DNA of 64,000 nt from Psychrobacter raelei. Its GTDB lineage: Bacteria; Pseudomonadota; Gammaproteobacteria; Pseudomonadales; Moraxellaceae. Where the stretch lies: the NCBI RefSeq assembly GCF_022631235.3, contig NZ_CP093310.2, positions 310,001 to 374,000 of the forward strand, given 5' to 3'. Shown here one piece after another: positions 18,671-57,476 of this stretch. The number at the start of each line of letters is the position of its first letter. Within the stretch, counting starts at the first letter, position 1. The position numbers and the translations under genes are program-made. The notes beneath the pieces were generated by a model. The model was not told where the DNA came from, did not search any database, and worked only from the letters and a program-made list of their open reading frames with translations.

Positions 18671-19957
18671 TTACAAACGAATATCACTAAGATCACTATT
18701 GAATAGGTATTTTAAGTCATAAAGTACATGATTAGATTTACCGAGAGCTCTAATTTGCTCTACGCCCATTTCTACGAACTGATGATGTGCGACTGCTAAG
18801 ATAATACCATCGTAGCTATTATTCTCTAAGTTAGTATTATCATTGATAGGGCTAATACCATACTCATGTTGAGCTTCTTCAGCATCAACCCAAGGATCGA
18901 ACACATCAACATCGATGTTATATTCTTTTAGCTCATGCACGATATCAATCACTTTGGTATTACGCACATCAGGGCAGTTCTCTTTGAAGCTTAGACCTAG
19001 GATGAGAACTCTTGCGCCTTCAACCTGAATGCGCTTTTTAATCATAGTTTTGACTAATTGGGTAACCACATATTCGCCCATACTGTCATTCAAGCGGCGA
19101 CCTGCCAAAATAATCTCTGGGTTGTAACCAATGGCCTGAGCTTTATGAGTGAGGTAGTAAGGATCGACACCGATACAATGCCCACCGACCAGACCTGGAC
19201 GGAAGGGTAAGAAGTTCCATTTAGTACCTGCCGCAGTTAATACGGCCTCAGTATCAATGCCCATTTTATTAAAGATAACGGCTAGTTCATTGATTAGGGC
19301 AATATTGACATCGCGCTGAGTATTTTCAATAACTTTAGCTGCTTCAGCTACCTTGATAGAAGGTGCTTTATGAGTGCCGGCTGTAATGACCAAGTTATAA
19401 ACATCATCTACTAGATCTGCTACTTCAGGAGTAGAGCCTGCAGTCACTTTAAGAATGTTAGTAACGCGGTGCTCTTTATCGCCTGGATTAATGCGCTCTG
19501 GACTATAGCCTGCAAAGAAGTCTTTATTGAAAGTGAGACCCGAGCTTCGCTCTAGCTCAGGAATACAGACCTCCTCTGTAGCACCAGGGTAGACAGTTGA
19601 CTCATATACCACAATGTCGCCAGCTTTAAGCACACTACCAATGGCAGTAGAAGCTTTAATTAGAGGCGTTAAATCAGGTTGTTTATATTCATCGATAGGG
19701 GTAGGTACGGTTACGATATAAAAGTTGCATTCAGCCAGTTCATTGATGTCTGAGCTAAACTGCAGTTGTTTGGCACTGGCGAGCTCTTCATCACTGACTT
19801 CTAAGGTATGATCTGTTCCTGATTTTAGCTCTTTGATTCTGTGTTGATTGATATCAAAGCCGATAACTGGATTCTTTTTACCAAACTCAACGGCTAAGGG
19901 TAGACCCACATAGCCCAAGCCGATTACTGCAATTTTTATATCGTTAACATTTAACAT
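18671..19957 (-). CDS. tviB: UDP-N-acetylglucosamine 6-dehydrogenase (TviB/WbpO)
   Basis: The 428-residue nucleotide-sugar dehydrogenase has the NAD-binding motif GLGYVG (13-18), VTVPTPID, the segment [14 protein letters not shown] and the catalytic Cys261 in [12 protein letters not shown]. These WbpO/TviB-type sequences, rather than the GFGGxCFPKD of UDP-glucose dehydrogenases, mark oxidation of UDP-GlcNAc (or UDP-GalNAc) to the uronic acid in two NAD-linked steps. It is paired with tviC downstream and with the PglF-like dehydratase gene upstream. Both TCA-side Ugd-like genes in this window belong to a different branch. Confidence 0.92.
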
Positions 19958-50384: not shown

Positions 50385-51263
50385 ATGCTTATGACCACTC
50401 ACGTTACTCATGCCGTTATCCCTGTTGCCGGCTTCGGTACCCGTATGTTGCCTTTATCAAAGTCTGTGCCCAAAGAGCTGCTACCACTCGGCAATCGTCC
50501 AGCCATTCATTATGTGGTAGAAGAGGCGATAGCGGCAGGGATTAAACACATCGTCTTAGTGGGCCATGCTCAAAAAAGCGCCATTGAGAACTACTTCGAT
50601 GTCAATGCTGAGCTTGATAATCAATTGCGCGCTAAGGGAAAAGATGAGCTGGCCGATAGCCTAAACTGGCTGCCTGAGGATGTCTCAGTGTCTGTGATTC
50701 GTCAAGGTAAGCCCTTAGGTCTGGGTCATGCGGTTTTAAAGGCGCGTCCTATTGTCGGTGACAATCCTTTTGCGGTGCTGCTACCTGATGTGGTGCTAAA
50801 CCCATTTACTACCAAGATGGATAAAGACAATCTGGCCTATATGATACAAGCCTTTGCGCAAACCCATCACTCACAAATCCTAGTTAGCCATGTTGCTGAT
50901 GAGGATGTACAAAAATATGGCATTGCTAAGCTAAAAGATGCTGATCAATTGTCGCAGCTAACAGGAGACAAAAACGCCAATTTTGCAGTGGCAGGTTTTG
51001 TCGAAAAGCCGCAGTTAGCAGATGCCCCCTCTAATCTGGCGGTAGTGGGACGCTATGTATTTAACGCCACTATCTTTGACTACTTGGCCAATACTCAGCC
51101 CTCTGTGGGCGGTGAGATTCAGCTAACGGACGCCATTGATGCGCTTATTAGTACTCAAGGTGTTGATGTCACGACCATGCTCGGTGATAGCTTTGATGCC
51201 GGTGATATGACCAGCTATATGCAGGCCTTTATTTACTTTGCTCAGCAGCAGCTACAAGCCTAA
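50385..51263 (+). CDS. galU: UTP-glucose-1-phosphate uridylyltransferase
   Basis: The 292-residue (or 290 from the ATG at 50391) enzyme starts with the nucleotidyltransferase signature VIPVAGFGTRMLPLSKSVPKELLP and has the sugar-binding segments EEAIAAGIKHIVLV, QGKPLGLGHAV and FAVLLPDVVL. Family-typical VGEIQLTD-like sequence follows (SVGGEIQLTDAI). It makes UDP-glucose, the precursor for UDP-glucuronate and several capsule sugars. The GGAT just before the second ATG suggests that start. It is the first of three same-strand genes (galU, pgi, ugd-like). Confidence 0.96.
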   Translation: MLMTTHVTHAVIPVAGFGTRMLPLSKSVPKELLPLGNRPAIHYVVEEAIAAGIKHIVLVGHAQKSAIENYFDVNAELDNQLRAKGKDELADSLNWLPEDVSVSVIRQGKPLGLGHAVLKARPIVGDNPFAVLLPDVVLNPFTTKMDKDNLAYMIQAFAQTHHSQILVSHVADEDVQKYGIAKLKDADQLSQLTGDKNANFAVAGFVEKPQLADAPSNLAVVGRYVFNATIFDYLANTQPSVGGEIQLTDAIDALISTQGVDVTTMLGDSFDAGDMTSYMQAFIYFAQQQLQA

Positions 51264-51399: not shown

Positions 51400-53091
51400 A
51401 TGGATAAAACCTTGCCCAATCAGCTGCCCCAATGGCAAAGGCTTCAGCAATTAGCGCAGCAGCCTTGGTCAATCAATGAGTTATTTGCCAAAGACGCCCA
51501 TAGAAGCACCAACTTTAGCCTCAGTGCTCAAGGCATGTTTTTTGATTACTCCAAGCAGTGCTTAGATGAATCGGTGAAAGCAGAGCTGTTTGAGTTGGCC
51601 AAAGCATGCCGATTGCCACAAAAGCTGGCTGCCTTGTACCAAGGCGATAAGGTCAATACCAGTGAAAAACGTGCAGCCCTGCACACCGCATTGCGTCTGC
51701 CTAAGTCGGCTCGTCTAACCGTAGATGGGGTGGATGTGGTGGCTGAGGTACATGACAGCTTGGCCAAAGCAGAAGACTTGGTTGATCGCATTCGTAGCGG
51801 TCTGTGGCGTGGCTATTCAGGCAAAGCCATCACTGATGTGGTCAATATTGGGGTAGGCGGCTCAGACTTGGGTCCGGTGATGGCCAATACCGCGCTTGAT
51901 GAATGGGCAGACAGTAATATTCGAGTGCACTTTGTGTCTAACATGGATGGCACGCAATTGGGCAGCCTGCTCGATAAGCTAAATCCAGAGACCACCCTGT
52001 TTATCATCTCATCTAAGTCTTTTGGTACCGTCGATACCTTATCGAATGCGCAGACAGCCCGAGCTTGGCTATTGACCACCGGCGCCAGTCCAGCCACTTT
52101 GTTGCGCCGTCATTTTATTGGGATATCAGCCAATACGGAGCGAGTAAGTGCGTGGGGGATTGCCAAAGAGCATCAATTAAAGCTTTGGGACTGGGTAGGT
52201 GGCCGCTTCTCTATGTGGTCAGCCATTGGTCTGGCTGTGGCCATCCGCATTGGGATGCCGCGATTTTATGAAATGCTGGCGGGTGCTCACGCTATGGATG
52301 AGCACTTCAAGCACGCGGACTTTGAGCATAATTTACCCGTCTTGCTGGGGCTTATCGGCGTATGGAACAGCAGCTTTTTGGGGATTAATGCCCATACCGT
52401 ATTGCCGTATGATGGCCGTTTAAAATATTTTCCAAGTTACCTAACCCAGCTTGAGATGGAAAGTAACGGTAAGTCGGTCACGCATGGCGGCCAGCCTGTG
52501 CCTTACGCCACCTGTCCTATCTTGTGGGGTGAGATTGGCTCGAATGCTCAGCATGCTTTTTATCAGCTATTGCACCAAGGTACTCAAAAGGTGTCTTGTG
52601 ACTTTATTGCCTGTGTTAATTACTATCAAAGTCGTGAAGCTGACGAGCTCAAAAAGCAGCATGCGTTATCTTTGGCCAACTGTTTGGCACAAAGCCGAGT
52701 ACTGGCCTTTGGTAACGATGCTTTAGCGCCTAAGCCTGATCAGGTGGCCACTGAGCTTGATAAATTTAAGCGTTACCGTGGCAATCAGCCCTCGACGACG
52801 TTGCTACTTGATGAGTTGACGCCAGCCAGCTTTGGCGCCTTAATCGCGCTGTATGAGCACAAAGTATTTGTCATGGCCAGTATTTGGGACATCAACCCCT
52901 TTGATCAGTGGGGAGTGGAGATGGGCAAACAGGTGGCCAATGAGGTGTTTGCTCATATTCGATTGGATACATCTGTGGCCTCTGACGCAGCAGCAGATGA
53001 CGCTCATAAACAGGCTCAGCTTGCTGCAGAAGCCTTTGATGGCTCGACTCAAGCATTGCTGCAGCACATTAATCAGCAATTAGACAGCTAA
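51400..53091 (+). CDS. pgi: Glucose-6-phosphate isomerase
   Basis: From the ATG at 51400 the enzyme has 563 residues, near the usual length of bacterial Pgi. It contains NIGVGGSDLGPVM, FISSKSFGTVDT-like SSKSF, WVGGRFSMWSAIGL, LESNGKSV-like EMESNGKSVTHGG and the C-terminal QWGVEMGKQ. These bind the sugar phosphate and position the catalytic Glu and His. It links fructose 6-phosphate and glucose 6-phosphate, feeding pgm and galU. A TTG at 51385 in frame is an alternative start without a better ribosome site. It follows galU by 136 bp. Confidence 0.96.
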   Translation: MDKTLPNQLPQWQRLQQLAQQPWSINELFAKDAHRSTNFSLSAQGMFFDYSKQCLDESVKAELFELAKACRLPQKLAALYQGDKVNTSEKRAALHTALRLPKSARLTVDGVDVVAEVHDSLAKAEDLVDRIRSGLWRGYSGKAITDVVNIGVGGSDLGPVMANTALDEWADSNIRVHFVSNMDGTQLGSLLDKLNPETTLFIISSKSFGTVDTLSNAQTARAWLLTTGASPATLLRRHFIGISANTERVSAWGIAKEHQLKLWDWVGGRFSMWSAIGLAVAIRIGMPRFYEMLAGAHAMDEHFKHADFEHNLPVLLGLIGVWNSSFLGINAHTVLPYDGRLKYFPSYLTQLEMESNGKSVTHGGQPVPYATCPILWGEIGSNAQHAFYQLLHQGTQKVSCDFIACVNYYQSREADELKKQHALSLANCLAQSRVLAFGNDALAPKPDQVATELDKFKRYRGNQPSTTLLLDELTPASFGALIALYEHKVFVMASIWDINPFDQWGVEMGKQVANEVFAHIRLDTSVASDAAADDAHKQAQLAAEAFDGSTQALLQHINQQLDS

Positions 53092-53183
53092 GCGCAGAAA
53101 AGCTTGCTGTTGGCCATCACTGCTGGGCCCAATGTGCCCCACTGACTTTATTACCATTAAAAAATATTAAGGATATGCGTATC

Positions 53184-54524
53184 ATGGCAACGTCAACTCA
53201 TTCGCCTGCTGCCCCTAGCAAAGCCGTTACCGACCACTGCGTTATCGTGGGTCATTCTATCGATGCCATCACCACCGCGACAGTCATGGTCAGTCTTGGC
53301 AATCAGGTGTGCCTGTATGCAGACCAACAAGCCTTGCAGCATACGCTTGAGACTTACACCTTTGAGCATCAACAGCAAGCGCTATGGCAGCTGTATCTCA
53401 ATCAAAACAGCATTGTTGTGCAGGACATGCCACAGCTTGCAAGCCAATTATTTAGCGATACTAAGGCCAGCTTCTACTGGCTGTTTTATGGCGATTTGCC
53501 CAGCAGCTGGCACGCTTTGGATGGGGTGCAGCAAGCATGGGTCAGTCAGCTGAATGACAGCCAAGTACCCAGTCAAACGCCAGTTATTTTCAGTGGTATC
53601 AGCACCCTAGGGGTATTTGCAAGCCTGGCCAAGCAGTGCCAAAGACCATGGGTGTATTATGTCCCCTTTGTGTTTTTACAAGACGGCAGTGCCTATCCTT
53701 CGATGCTATCGCCAAAATTGTGGCTGATGGGTGAGAAGACTGCAGATTCTATCGATAAAGTGGCGGTGCTGCAGCCGCTAATAGCGCAGGCTCAGCAACG
53801 CTATATTAGCGATATTGCCACCATTGAGTTTTCTCGTAGTGCCATTATGAGCATGCTGGCCACCCGAGTTAGCTTTATGAATGAATGGTCGAGACTGGCC
53901 GATCAGCAGGGCGTAGATATCCTTGAGGTTGCCAATATTATGGGGTTAGATACCCGTATCGGCAGCAGCTATCTAAAAGCAGGCTGGGGCTTTGGCGGTC
54001 AAACCTTGCCGGCTGAGATTAGCGCCCTACAGCAAACCTTACAAAATACTCAGGTTGAACACCGCCTAATGCAGGCGGTCAATATCATTAATGATGACCA
54101 AAAAGAGCTGATTTTCCGTAAATTCTGGCAGCATTTTGATGGTGCCATTGAAAACAAACAGGTGAGCATATGGGGTGCAAGCTATAAAGCAGGCTCAGGG
54201 CGCACTTCCGCCTCTGCCATTCATCCGTTACTACGCCTATTGTGGTCATATAACATTACCACCCATATCTATGCGCTAGAGGCACAGTCTGAGCTGGCAA
54301 GTCTATACCCTGATCAGCCGCTGTTACAGTTTATTGACTCTGCCACCGATAAGTTGGCCGATAGCGATGCGTTATTTGTGCTGTCTTGGCCAAGCACCAA
54401 GCGTCTACCTATCAGTGCCATTAATGAGGTGGTGGTGCCAGTCTTTGATGCCCAAAATGCCTTTGCAAAAACTCAAGTGGCCGCTTTAGTAGGGACGTAT
54501 CAAGGAATTGGCCGCAGTAAATAA
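53184..54524 (+). CDS. UDP-glucose 6-dehydrogenase-like protein lacking catalytic residues
   Basis: The 446-residue protein follows the length and domain order of UDP-glucose dehydrogenases. The dehydrogenase centre is recognisable in FSRSAIMSMLATRVSFMNE, GLDTRIGSSYLKAGWGFGG and VSIWGASYKAGSGRTSAS, but key positions differ from the real Ugd at 56208. The NAD loop GAGYVG is VGHSID (22-27), and PEFLREG is PFVFLQDG. Lys231 and Asn235 of Ugd become Arg218 and Met222, and the catalytic Cys is Thr273 in GFGGQTLPAE. The frame is intact with good codons, so a non-catalytic role is likelier than decay. The AAGGAT site favours the ATG at 53184. It lies between pgi and pgm in the sugar-precursor block. 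Confidence 0.8.
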   Translation: MATSTHSPAAPSKAVTDHCVIVGHSIDAITTATVMVSLGNQVCLYADQQALQHTLETYTFEHQQQALWQLYLNQNSIVVQDMPQLASQLFSDTKASFYWLFYGDLPSSWHALDGVQQAWVSQLNDSQVPSQTPVIFSGISTLGVFASLAKQCQRPWVYYVPFVFLQDGSAYPSMLSPKLWLMGEKTADSIDKVAVLQPLIAQAQQRYISDIATIEFSRSAIMSMLATRVSFMNEWSRLADQQGVDILEVANIMGLDTRIGSSYLKAGWGFGGQTLPAEISALQQTLQNTQVEHRLMQAVNIINDDQKELIFRKFWQHFDGAIENKQVSIWGASYKAGSGRTSASAIHPLLRLLWSYNITTHIYALEAQSELASLYPDQPLLQFIDSATDKLADSDALFVLSWPSTKRLPISAINEVVVPVFDAQNAFAKTQVAALVGTYQGIGRSK

Positions 54525-54551: not shown

Positions 54552-54588
54552 AAAAAACCCCGCGACTTAGTAAGTCGCGGGGTTTTAA
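54552..54588. terminator. Bidirectional rho-independent terminator between ugd-like gene and pgm
   Basis: A perfect 15-bp stem (54554-54568 with 54572-54586), GC-rich at its centre, has a 3-nt AGT loop and A4/T4 ends. It serves the two convergent genes. Confidence 0.95.
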
Positions 54589-54652: not shown

Positions 54653-56116
54653 CTAAGCAACTTGAGCGCCTTGTGTGGCAAGCCACTGTTTAATCTCCGC
54701 TGTCTTCTCAGTAAGCAGACCCTCATCGCCTTTGGTTTCTATATTTAAGCGAATCAGTGGCTCTGTGTTGGAGGCACGGATATTAAAGCGCCACTGACCG
54801 AAGTCTAGGCTTAAGCCATCTAAAGTGTTCTTTTGAGGGTTTTGTACACTAAAATATGCCTCAATGGCCTTAATGATGTCATCACTGCTAGCTTCAGTGA
54901 GCTTAAAGTTAATCTCACCAGAGCTGGGGTAAGCATGGATACGCTCATCGACCAGCTGGCCTAGAGACTTGCCGGTGGTCGATAACAGCTCGATGGTAAG
55001 CAGCCAAGGAATCATGCCGCTGTCGCAATAAAAGAAGTCACGGAAGTAGTGGTGGGCGCTCATTTCGCCGCCGTAAACTGCGCCAGACTCACGCATCACT
55101 TGCTTGATAAACGAATGGCCGGATTTACTGATGACCGCTTTACCCTTACCTTCTTCGATAAGCGCTTCGGTATTATATAGGACACGCGGGTCATAGACGA
55201 TGGCGGCACCTTGATGTTTTTGTAAAAAGGCTTGTGCCAACATACCGACCACATAGCTGCCTTCTACAAACTCGCCTTGGGCATCAAATAAAAAGCAGCG
55301 GTCAAAGTCACCATCAAAGGCAATACCTAAGTCCGCTTTATTGTCGATCACCGCTTGCTGGGTAGACTCACGGTTGGCCAAAACCATGGGATTAGGGATG
55401 CCATTAGGGAAGCTACCATCGGGTGTATGATGTACTTTGATGATTTCAATGGGGGCGTTTTTTTGCTGTAAACGCTGCTCTAATAAGTCCACGGTGGGAC
55501 CTGCACTGCCATTGCCTGAGTTGATGACAATCTTTAATGGCACCAGCTTATTGGTATCGATAAAGCGCATTAAATGATCGACATAGGCGGTTTTATCAAA
55601 CTTTTCTACCACTGTGCCTGCGTGAGTGATAGCGGCAAAATCACCTTGCTCTGCTAACGCTTGAATCTCTGCTAGGCCAGAGTCGGCACTAATGGGTCTT
55701 GAGCCTTCACGCACCAGTTTTAGCCCGTTGTAGTTAATTGGGTTATGACTGGCGGTAACTTCAATGCCGCCTAAGGCATGATAGTGACTGGTGGCAAAAT
55801 ACACCTCTTCGGTACCGGTCATGCCCAGGTCAATGACATCGACGCCGGCATCGATGATGCCCCGAATGGTAGCCTGCTTGAGCGTCTCGCTCGAGTCACG
55901 GATATCGCAGCCTATAACAATGCTGTTCTCTAAGGTGTCATTACCTTCACTGTCGGCTTTTTGACTGGCCAAAATCTGGGCAAAAGCTCGGCCGATACGA
56001 TAAGCAATGTCTTCATCAAGGTTAACGCCCAGCTCACCACGAATGTCATAAGCTTTAAACGAGGTAATAGGACGATGTGGCAGATTATTAGCAGAAATAA
56101 CAGGATTTGTGGTCAT
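54653..56116 (-). CDS. pgm: Phosphomannomutase/phosphoglucomutase (AlgC family)
   Basis: The 487-residue enzyme starts with SFKAYDIRGELG, has the phosphoserine Ser123 in the loop EVTASHNPINYNG, the metal-binding loop DGDFDRCF, the sugar-specificity loop GEMSAHHYFRD and the phosphate-binding RASNTEPLIRLNIE. It converts glucose 6-phosphate to glucose 1-phosphate (and mannose phosphates), the step before GalU. It is transcribed toward the terminator shared with the ugd-like gene and follows ugd after 91 bp, so ugd-pgm is one unit. Confidence 0.96.
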   Translation of the reverse strand: MTTNPVISANNLPHRPITSFKAYDIRGELGVNLDEDIAYRIGRAFAQILASQKADSEGNDTLENSIVIGCDIRDSSETLKQATIRGIIDAGVDVIDLGMTGTEEVYFATSHYHALGGIEVTASHNPINYNGLKLVREGSRPISADSGLAEIQALAEQGDFAAITHAGTVVEKFDKTAYVDHLMRFIDTNKLVPLKIVINSGNGSAGPTVDLLEQRLQQKNAPIEIIKVHHTPDGSFPNGIPNPMVLANRESTQQAVIDNKADLGIAFDGDFDRCFLFDAQGEFVEGSYVVGMLAQAFLQKHQGAAIVYDPRVLYNTEALIEEGKGKAVISKSGHSFIKQVMRESGAVYGGEMSAHHYFRDFFYCDSGMIPWLLTIELLSTTGKSLGQLVDERIHAYPSSGEINFKLTEASSDDIIKAIEAYFSVQNPQKNTLDGLSLDFGQWRFNIRASNTEPLIRLNIETKGDEGLLTEKTAEIKQWLATQGAQVA

Positions 56117-56207: not shown

Positions 56208-57476
56208 TTAACTATAGCCAAACACATCTCGTGAGTAAACCTTGTCTTTCACATCGGATAACTCATCATGCCAGCGGTTGGCAACAATCAAATCGTTTTG
56301 CTGTTTAAACTGCGCCAAATCATTGATCACTGGGCAGCCCTCAAAGCTGTCAGTTTCTAAAGCCGGCTCATAAATGCTAATGCTGACCCCATGCTGCTTT
56401 AGAGTATTGATCACATCGAGTACCGCCGAGTCTCTAAAATTATCAGCGTCTTTTTTCATGCTCAGGCGATAAATACCCACTTGATTGGGGTTTTTGTCGA
56501 TGATTTGACGGGCGATGAAACGTTTTCGGGTGTTGTTGGCATCGACCACAGCATGGATTAAGTTGGCAGGAATACCGGCATAATTAGCCTTTAACTGCTG
56601 GGTATCTTTGGGTAGGCAGTAGCCGCCATAGCCAAAAGAGGGGTTGTTATAATGCTGGCCAATACGTGGGTCTAAGCCGACGCCGGTGATGATGGACTGG
56701 CTGTTTAATTGATGCTTTTCAGCAAAGCTGTCTAATTCATTAAAAAACGCAATGCGGGTGGCCAGATAACTGTTGGCAAATAGCTTGACGGCTTCAGCTT
56801 CCGTCGGCGGCATCATCAGCGTCGCCACCTCAGGCGCTAGGCTGGCTTGTTGATATAAATGCATTAAGGCTGATGCCAAATCTTGCTGCTCTAAGCTTGC
56901 GCCCACAATAATACGAGACGGATATAAATTGTCATACAGCGCTTGGCCCTCGCGCAAAAACTCCGGCATAAACAAAATTTGATTATCAAACTGCTGACGC
57001 ATGTTGTCGGTAAAGCCAATCGGAATGGTTGATTTAATCACGATGGGTACCGTCGCATTTTGCTGTCGAACTGCGGCAATACTGGCTTCAACCGAGGAGG
57101 TATCAAACTTGCCTGAGGCCACATCGTAGTTCGTCGGGGTGGCAATGATCACCAAATCGCTGGCCTGATAAATGCCCTGATCCTCTATCACCGCCTGCAT
57201 CGTGGCAGTTAGGTTGAGCGGCTTATGCGCCAGATAATCACAAATCTCGGTGTCTTGTAGCGGTGACTTATTTTGTTGTAATAACTGTATTTTGTTTTGG
57301 TCGATATCAAACAGCATTACTTGGGTATGTAAATGAGCCTGCGCCAATAAAATAGCGTTGGATAGGCCCACATAGCCTGCACCGATGACCACAATCTTGG
57401 ATAAGCCAATAGCAGCAGCGTGCGCAGATGAGGGGTGTAAATGTGAGGCAGTTTCAGTGCTGTCAGAGTTGCTCAT
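56208..57476 (-). CDS. ugd: UDP-glucose 6-dehydrogenase
   Basis: The 422-residue protein has GAGYVG (32-37) for NAD+, IATPTNYD, the catalytic glutamate segment FMPEFLREG (E172, E176), KLFANSY with Lys231 and Asn235 and the nucleophile Cys287 with Asp291 in GYGGYCLPKD. It oxidises UDP-glucose to UDP-glucuronate in two NAD-linked steps. The extra 24-residue Ser/His-rich N-terminus before the Rossmann fold is unusual; a later start was not evident. The gene is upstream of pgm on the same strand and complements the degenerate homologue on the other side of pgm. Confidence 0.93.
   Translation of the reverse strand: MSNSDSTETASHLHPSSAHAAAIGLSKIVVIGAGYVGLSNAILLAQAHLHTQVMLFDIDQNKIQLLQQNKSPLQDTEICDYLAHKPLNLTATMQAVIEDQGIYQASDLVIIATPTNYDVASGKFDTSSVEASIAAVRQQNATVPIVIKSTIPIGFTDNMRQQFDNQILFMPEFLREGQALYDNLYPSRIIVGASLEQQDLASALMHLYQQASLAPEVATLMMPPTEAEAVKLFANSYLATRIAFFNELDSFAEKHQLNSQSIITGVGLDPRIGQHYNNPSFGYGGYCLPKDTQQLKANYAGIPANLIHAVVDANNTRKRFIARQIIDKNPNQVGIYRLSMKKDADNFRDSAVLDVINTLKQHGVSISIYEPALETDSFEGCPVINDLAQFKQQNDLIVANRWHDELSDVKDKVYSRDVFGYS

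Follow-up and report, generated by a model that had tools for sequence, protein, structure and literature searches.

A probable pseudoenzyme derived from UDP-glucose dehydrogenase beside galU and pgi in Psychrobacter and other Moraxellaceae

The capsule (K) locus of Acinetobacter carries a galU-ugd-gpi-pgm block, as described in the accessible portions of PMC3628348, PMC9676051 and PMC3726653, and in the portions of the first two its ugd is called a uridine diphosphate (UDP)-glucose dehydrogenase with UDP-glucuronic acid (UDP-GlcA) as its product. The gene considered here, referred to as X, is a counterpart of this ugd in a 64,000-nucleotide stretch of the Psychrobacter raelei genome (contig NZ_CP093310.2, positions 310,001 to 374,000; ‘the window’). 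An earlier sequence-only reading had placed a UGDH-type gene between pgi and pgm; its coordinates proved right, and the frame is open over 446 amino acids (Table 1). The conserved K-locus ugd falls in the same clade and the same slot as X and is thus its orthologue, with the order galU-X-pgi in Acinetobacter where most Psychrobacter and Moraxella-like loci read galU-pgi-X. That X is a pseudoenzyme by sequence is supported by its residues, which also argue against the UDP-GlcA product given in the papers for the K-locus gene. With a probability of about one half (0.48), X would be a non-catalytic, UDP-sugar-binding partner that tunes the supply of UDP-glucose by GalU and Pgi, in a manner functionally similar to GalF.

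GalF is the pseudo-GalU of enterobacteria and, in the available part of PMC11796359, is reported to interact with GalU in E. coli. Like X it is an apparently activity-less paralogue of an enzyme of the UDP-glucose pathway, located in a capsule locus; it differs in fold and family, X deriving from Ugd and not from GalU, and the analogy is thus one of function with no claim of homology. The closest known enzymes to X are the long-type UGDHs (PDB 3gg2, 2y0e BceC, 4a7p UgdG and human UGDH), from which it differs by the lack of the nucleophilic Cys, by a broken nicotinamide adenine dinucleotide (NAD) motif and by the gain of Arg312, Trp315 and His347, and in Psychrobacter also by the lack of the catalytic Asn.

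As to capsule composition, the part of a typing paper that was available assigns glucuronic acid (GlcA) to the extra genes ugd2-ugd5. K71 and K74 contain GlcA, and their loci have ugd4 for UDP-GlcA in addition to the galU-pgm module, according to excerpts of PMC11619341. In K102 the common ugd is present and a complex-sugar module is lacking, and the authors allow for GlcA and describe a capsule without it (PMC12111749, in part); the K102 case alone is weak evidence. In A. baylyi, the accessible text of PMC2606687 counts galU and pgi among the unexpectedly dispensable genes, with pgi listed a second time, at a later step, under the code E; another gene named ugd, ACIAD0072, has the code E (taken as essential) and is given no interpretation, with galU dispensable. 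In the open-licence literature, no published mention of the missing Cys of X was found, nor anything on a UGDH pseudoenzyme, a Psychrobacter UDP-glucose 6-dehydrogenase or the active-site cysteine of Acinetobacter Ugd.

Catalytic residues lost and UDP-side residues kept

X contains the central UGDH domain (PF00984, 81.7 bits against a Pfam cut-off of 25.4), which places it in the UGDH superfamily, and its C-terminal UGDH domain scores below the cut-off (21.2 against 30). In X, Pfam reported no match to PF03721, the NAD-binding domain of the N-terminus, at E-values up to 1, and the same domain is strong in the neighbouring short Ugd (98.1 bits); TIGR03026, the NCBIfam model of nucleotide sugar dehydrogenases, matches X with 128.1 bits, below its cut-off of 189.8. 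Modelling nevertheless predicts a full three-domain UGDH fold, and X is predicted to dimerize via the central domain. A second model, of the Acinetobacter X P0122, was weaker (predicted local distance difference test score 82.2, with loop 235-245 below 50), and its Foldseek matches were again UGDHs, at a root-mean-square deviation (rmsd) near 8 Å. A structural match to 1mfz was discounted for its rmsd of 20.6.

For the numbering of residues, the short Ugd of the window was matched to the UGDH of S. pyogenes (1dli/1dlj), and 511 sequences were aligned. At the active-site positions of that enzyme (Cys260, Asn208, Glu141, Lys204 and others), the X of the window differs throughout: Cys260 is replaced by Thr, Asn208 by Met, Glu141 by Val and Lys263 by Ala, together with the milder changes Glu145 to Asp, Lys204 to Arg and Asp264 to Glu; in the GxGxxG motif the first Gly is kept, and the second and third are Ser and Ala. 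The sequence-only reading, in which every catalytic residue had been lost, therefore stands for the Cys, the Asn, Glu141 and two Gly, and goes a little too far for the retained first Gly and the three conservative replacements. The catalytic Lys that it gives as lost is indeed replaced in the window copy, but Acinetobacter and most copies of the genera labelled g24, g36 and g37 still have this Lys.

Residues were counted in 49 X against 17 genuine (canonical) long Ugds. The nucleophilic Cys, at position 274 of X, is found in 0/49 against 17/17, and the same holds for Glu163, the first Glu of PEFLREG; a Glu aligns at this latter position in three X of the Alcanivorax group (L233, L234 and L237). 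Gly25 is present in 3/49 and Gly28 in 0/49, both being invariant in the canonical set (17/17), and the beta-2 Asp remains in 1/49; the catalytic Lys is present in 25/49 X and the Asn in 15/49. The cleft segment varies by subclade, as PFVFLQDG, PDTIQEG or PLFIREG.

In the whole alignment the Cys is missing from 480 of the 511 rows (T 185, N 151, S 131, G 9, A 4), although these rows are not independent, in that loci, window and protein clusters overlap and the grouping is itself the absence of Cys. The 31 rows with Cys are 23 long Ugds (23/23 of the genuine ones retain it), seven short Ugds and the TviB-like protein of the window. A tree is therefore the better test, and both the tree and the 360 proteins from the hit lists of three homology searches that used X sequences as queries are independent of that grouping. 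None of the 360 (the best 120 of 695, of 2058 and of 7783 hits, the last search having scored 8000 candidates) has the Cys, and on these sequences its loss is beyond chance. In the tree, 49 X form one clade with a support of 0.996, and with more rows 58/58 X do so with a support of 0.993 and no Cys-bearing row inside; the support is 1.0 with the N-domain excluded. The larger clade includes copies from Alcanivorax, Halopseudomonas, Ignatzschineria and Advenella, the sample (66 rows and three outgroup rows, then 11 more) having been hand-picked for diversity. Misalignment of the Cys was rejected, as the GGxx loop is gap-free in the printed rows and GGxC stands at the same position in 17/17 canonical sequences. 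The replacement is Asn or Ser in Acinetobacter and Thr (once Ala) in the Psychrobacter loci; the printed Acinetobacter rows keep Lys204, Glu145 and Asp264, with Asn208 changed to Ser and the second and third Gly of the NAD motif lost.

On the UDP side of the site, R258, an aromatic residue at 263, G269, G271, G272, an aromatic residue at 334 and a basic one at 335 are kept in 49/49 X, as are GFGG or GYGG and a Glu or Asp at 278. By comparison with human UGDH structures, we take R258 (from the partner subunit), Y263, the GFGG loop, residue 334 and K335, the presumed equivalent of human Lys339, to hold the UDP. Because R258, Y263, the GFGG loop, F/Y334 and K/R335 are kept, X would probably still bind the UDP half of a sugar nucleotide. 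On the sugar side, Arg424, at a position that presumably corresponds to human R442, is kept in 29/49.

Distribution, gene order and selection

X was found in 319 of 348 Moraxellaceae genomes in a table read by hand, that is, 330 matches minus nine genomes with a long Ugd only (in g31, g33 and g34, and G368), G157 (a short Ugd) and G363 (a weak match). It is present in 105/105 Psychrobacter, 169/175 Acinetobacter, 19/22 g35 and 6/6 g29 genomes, g35 and g29 being probably Moraxella, and also occurs in g24, g25, g27, g36 and g37; in g31, g33 and g34 a genuine long Ugd adjoins pgi instead. When named genomes were scanned with a query X from Acinetobacter, 69 loci were obtained, of which 68 have a Cys-less X and one, L239 from a Lysobacterales metagenome-assembled genome (MAG), has a genuine Ugd only. 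The species with X include A. calcoaceticus, A. pittii, A. nosocomialis, A. seifertii, A. baylyi and A. venetianus, as well as a strain named A. baumannii ACIN00150, the well-known A. baumannii strains lying outside the loci read; the Acinetobacter orthologue was read in the loci of A. nosocomialis, A. pittii, A. calcoaceticus and ACIN00150. In A. baylyi ADP1 it is the gene that separates galU (ACIAD0099) from pgi (ACIAD0101). Rather than a local oddity of one capsule type, X is a clade that spreads over Moraxellaceae and into other groups, with linkage to galU and pgi in most cases, and neither of the outcomes named as refuting the pseudoenzyme, a Cys-bearing orthologue or a neutral ratio of non-synonymous to synonymous substitution rates (dN/dS), was seen. 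Outside Pseudomonadales, X of the Acinetobacter type stands beside galU and/or pgi in L191 and L195 (Advenella), L203 (an Alcaligenaceae MAG) and L223 (an Ignatzschineria MAG), the Advenella and Alcaligenaceae copies being 73-74 % identical to P0122; horizontal transfer is the likely source, with contamination as the alternative.

The neighbours of X are galU and/or pgi, with pgi in 47/47 loci of the dN/dS set; in L068 and L079 neither was seen, and the contig ends there. The order is galU-X-pgi in the printed loci of Acinetobacter, Alcanivorax and Halopseudomonas and galU-pgi-X, contig permitting, in those of Psychrobacter, Moraxella-like genomes, g36 and g37; pgi-X-pgm recurs in the Psychrobacter loci read, in agreement with the synteny proposed earlier. 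In one locus (L005, G021:C245) the galU about 1.5 kb downstream of X is 67 % identical to that of the window, below most Psychrobacter, and the module may be a rearranged or replaced one. Four Psychrobacter genomes (G014, G020, G312 and G333) have a divergent X, 36-38 % identical to that of the window, which follows galU-pgi in L065 (G020), L066 (G333) and L067 (G312) and lies at a contig end by pgm in L079 (G014); the three sampled for the tree (L065, L066 and L079) group with g27, which suggests in-place gene replacement.

Six Acinetobacter genomes lack X; galU is missing from these same six and from no others, and none of the six has pgi. In Psychrobacter, galU was found in 103/105 genomes, the two misses being assemblies 83 and 89 % complete. 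One g35 genome, G278, has galU, with X and pgi not found, and its galU locus (L151) is 2576 bases long on a contig that seems to end there. Among the 19 X-less genomes searched, pgi was found in five (g26 and g30) and galU in five, so that in other genera either gene can occur without X.

An intact long Ugd lies near X in three lineages: g24 (L130, L113), g36 genome G289 (L118, L128) and an Alcanivoracaceae MAG (L236). The order is Ugd-galU-pgi-X-pgm in the g24 genome G234 and Ugd-galU-X-pgi in L236 (712-5894), where the intact enzyme and the pseudoenzyme stand side by side. The simplest reading is that X and the long Ugd arose by an old duplication or form a paralogue pair. At E 1e-75 the long Ugd occurs in 12/348 family genomes, leaving 336/348 without it (16 rows, four g25 rows being X itself); none of the 12 belongs to Psychrobacter or Acinetobacter. 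The short Ugd occurs in 148/348 family genomes, 64/105 Psychrobacter and 70/175 Acinetobacter (the latter rows counted by hand), and 41/105 Psychrobacter have X without it at E 1e-30; these counts cover the short and long types, and other Ugd subtypes may have been missed. X is therefore linked mostly to galU and pgi, and not to a genuine Ugd. In two Psychrobacter genomes, G322 and G336, second matches to the short Ugd contain three and five in-frame stops; each of these genomes carries, in addition, an open X and, at another place, an intact short Ugd.

X is under strong purifying selection in Psychrobacter, weaker than that on its enzyme neighbours: X has a median dN/dS of 0.082 over 94 pairs, against 0.056 over 147 pairs for pgm and 0.040 over 101 pairs for pgi, from 47 X, 47 partial pgi and 44 partial pgm sequences and pairs with dS of 0.15-1.6, the value for X being inflated by some untranslated upstream codons in the frames. 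Within X the central domain evolves most slowly (0.027), followed by the cleft segment (0.052), the C-domain (0.056) and the N-domain (0.099). A frame of at least 427 amino acids is open in 103/105 Psychrobacter copies. The other two copies, in G323 and G340, each fall into two frames; these assemblies are 86 and 85 % complete and have further split genes nearby (pgi and pgm in G323, mazG in G340), so that assembly errors were taken as the cause. A sequencing artefact was rejected on the same 103 open frames, and a decaying gene on dN/dS and frame integrity, which bears out the earlier view that X is not dead. A stop was flagged in seven listed X copies, four of them from Acinetobacter and stop-free with an Acinetobacter query; in the other three, two stops lie upstream of the gene and one is true.

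In the window, X is the third same-strand gene after galU and pgi, with pgm and the short Ugd beyond it on the opposite strand (Table 1); an alternative start at an ATG at 53175 is possible. The genuine ugd noticed earlier 1.7 kb away does carry the catalytic residues. Past the stop of X, a terminator-like hairpin followed by TTTTAATTT was found by eye, and by position galU-pgi-X therefore looks like a single unit; this hairpin is absent from the matches of a consensus terminator scan (12 found against 7.8 expected), and a promoter scan was uninformative (12 against 11.3). A polysaccharide locus recognized by eye at 3510-24298 (minus strand) has glycosyltransferase-like genes, a Wzc-like protein and a TviB-like dehydrogenase (18671-19957); some 29 kb separate it from X, so that galU-pgi-X is a module apart from this locus, unlike in Acinetobacter.

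Table 1. Positions in the window of X, its predicted sites and its neighbours.
Feature	Position	Strand	Remark
X, Ugd-derived probable pseudoenzyme	53184..54524	+	446 amino acids, open frame
NAD motif remnant, residues 23-28	53250..53267	+	Gly23 kept, Gly25 to Ser, Gly28 to Ala
Cleft segment in place of PEFLREG, residues 161-168	53664..53687	+	PFVFLQDG
Catalytic Lys204 to Arg218, Asn208 to Met222	53835..53849	+	
Arg258-Glu278, R...Y...GFGG loop	53955..54017	+	predicted UDP holding; Thr274 at Cys position
Clade-specific Arg312, Trp315	54117..54128	+	Arg 47/49 X, Trp 49/49; canonical 0/17 each
Lys335	54186..54188	+	predicted diphosphate contact; 49 X: Lys 41, Arg 8
Clade-specific His347	54222..54224	+	43/49 X; canonical 0/17
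galU	50385..51263	+	nucleotidyltransferase domain; probable galU
pgi	51400..53091	+	PF00342
GC-rich hairpin, then TTTTAATTT	~54558..54582	+	terminator-like, by eye from printed sequence
pgm	54653..56116	-	next gene, opposite strand; name from the sequence-only reading, without family search
Genuine short Ugd	56208..57476	-	catalytic residues present; comparison

Weighing the explanations

The preferred reading starts from an open gene under selection beside pgi and usually galU, in one clade without Cys or NAD signature. Its product, with the predicted UGDH fold and dimerized through the central domain, would bind the UDP half of a sugar nucleotide with oxidation made impossible; as the least certain step, ligand-bound X may then act on GalU, Pgi or the users of UDP-glucose through a clade-specific site to which Arg312, Trp315 and His347 would belong. 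A wider version is more tentative, namely that the Acinetobacter K-locus ugd and its Moraxellaceae counterparts might be, in place of dehydrogenases, receptors of the UDP-glucose pool that derive from a dead enzyme, control the GalU/Pgi node and were kept after loss of the intact partner.

Several observations weigh against this reading. The dN/dS of X is about twice that of pgi, and its N-domain has the highest value of the four segments. The Moraxella-type copy of G281 (g35, 88 % complete) has the one true in-frame stop, in the N-domain of X, and its locus (L057) reads pgi-X without galU, which is on another contig; in G021, galU is downstream of X and not upstream. The equivalent of R442 is Gln or Lys in most sampled Psychrobacter and Moraxella-type X, where binding of the UDP-sugar may thus be weaker. 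The co-occurrence of X, galU and pgi is partly forced because they are neighbours, and the link to GalU is positional only, Pgi being equally close.

The main rival, unlikely on present evidence, is that X is an enzyme with changed chemistry, catalysing a UDP-sugar reaction without NAD or Cys (e.g. hydrolysis or isomerization) with Arg312, Trp315, His347 and a remodelled PFxFLxDG cleft. Such a role would fit the near-constancy of Trp315 (49/49), Arg312 (47/49) and His347 (43/49), all absent from the 17 genuine long Ugds, the slow cleft segment (dN/dS 0.052) and the acidic residue at 278 in 49/49; on the other hand, the cleft residues vary by subclade, which would be unusual for one conserved reaction, and no pathway gap for X was identified, none having been searched for.

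It is less probable again that X joins a genuine nucleotide-sugar dehydrogenase as a subunit, regulatory or structural, in mixed dimers through the central domain. That domain, which we take to be the dimer interface of UGDHs, is the slowest-evolving part of X, and genuine Ugds occur close to X, 1.7 kb from it in the window and, as intact long Ugds, in L118/L128, L130/L113 and L236. However, with X present and the short Ugd absent in 41/105 Psychrobacter, a subunit or regulator role for that nearby Ugd cannot be general and was rejected as such; the short Ugd is found in just 70/175 Acinetobacter, and at E 1e-75 no long Ugd was found in either genus. In a possible variant, the partner would be another Ugd subtype or one of the TviB/Gna type, outside the counts made.

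There is very little to recommend an X that still oxidizes UDP-glucose in Acinetobacter and is a pseudoenzyme only in the Psychrobacter/Moraxella branch: Lys204, Glu145 and Asp264 are kept, and the gene is named a UDP-glucose dehydrogenase in the parts of PMC3628348 and PMC9676051 available, but in the printed rows Asn or Ser replaces the Cys, Ser replaces Asn208 and the second and third Gly of the NAD motif are lost, and GlcA is assigned in the available excerpts to ugd2-ugd5, with ugd4 carried by K71 and K74. Least probable of all is a slowly decaying relic held by its operon position, which would suit the loss of most catalytic residues, a dN/dS about twice that of pgi and the stop in one Moraxella-type copy, but not the median of 0.082, the several residues invariant across the sampled clade and the absence of internal stops from the listed Psychrobacter and Acinetobacter X rows.

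If the preferred reading of X as a non-catalytic partner of the GalU/Pgi node is true, a gene described as invariably present in A. baumannii capsule loci is assigned a function in typing schemes that it does not have, and the K-locus ugd should not be used to infer what a capsule is made of. X would also illustrate clearly how a pseudoenzyme can outlast its enzyme, and the two-copy genomes (L236 and g24), beside hundreds with X but without the long Ugd, make the order of events testable. The question thereby raised for the family is what role a UGDH fold with neither NAD motif nor Cys may play beside GalU and Pgi.
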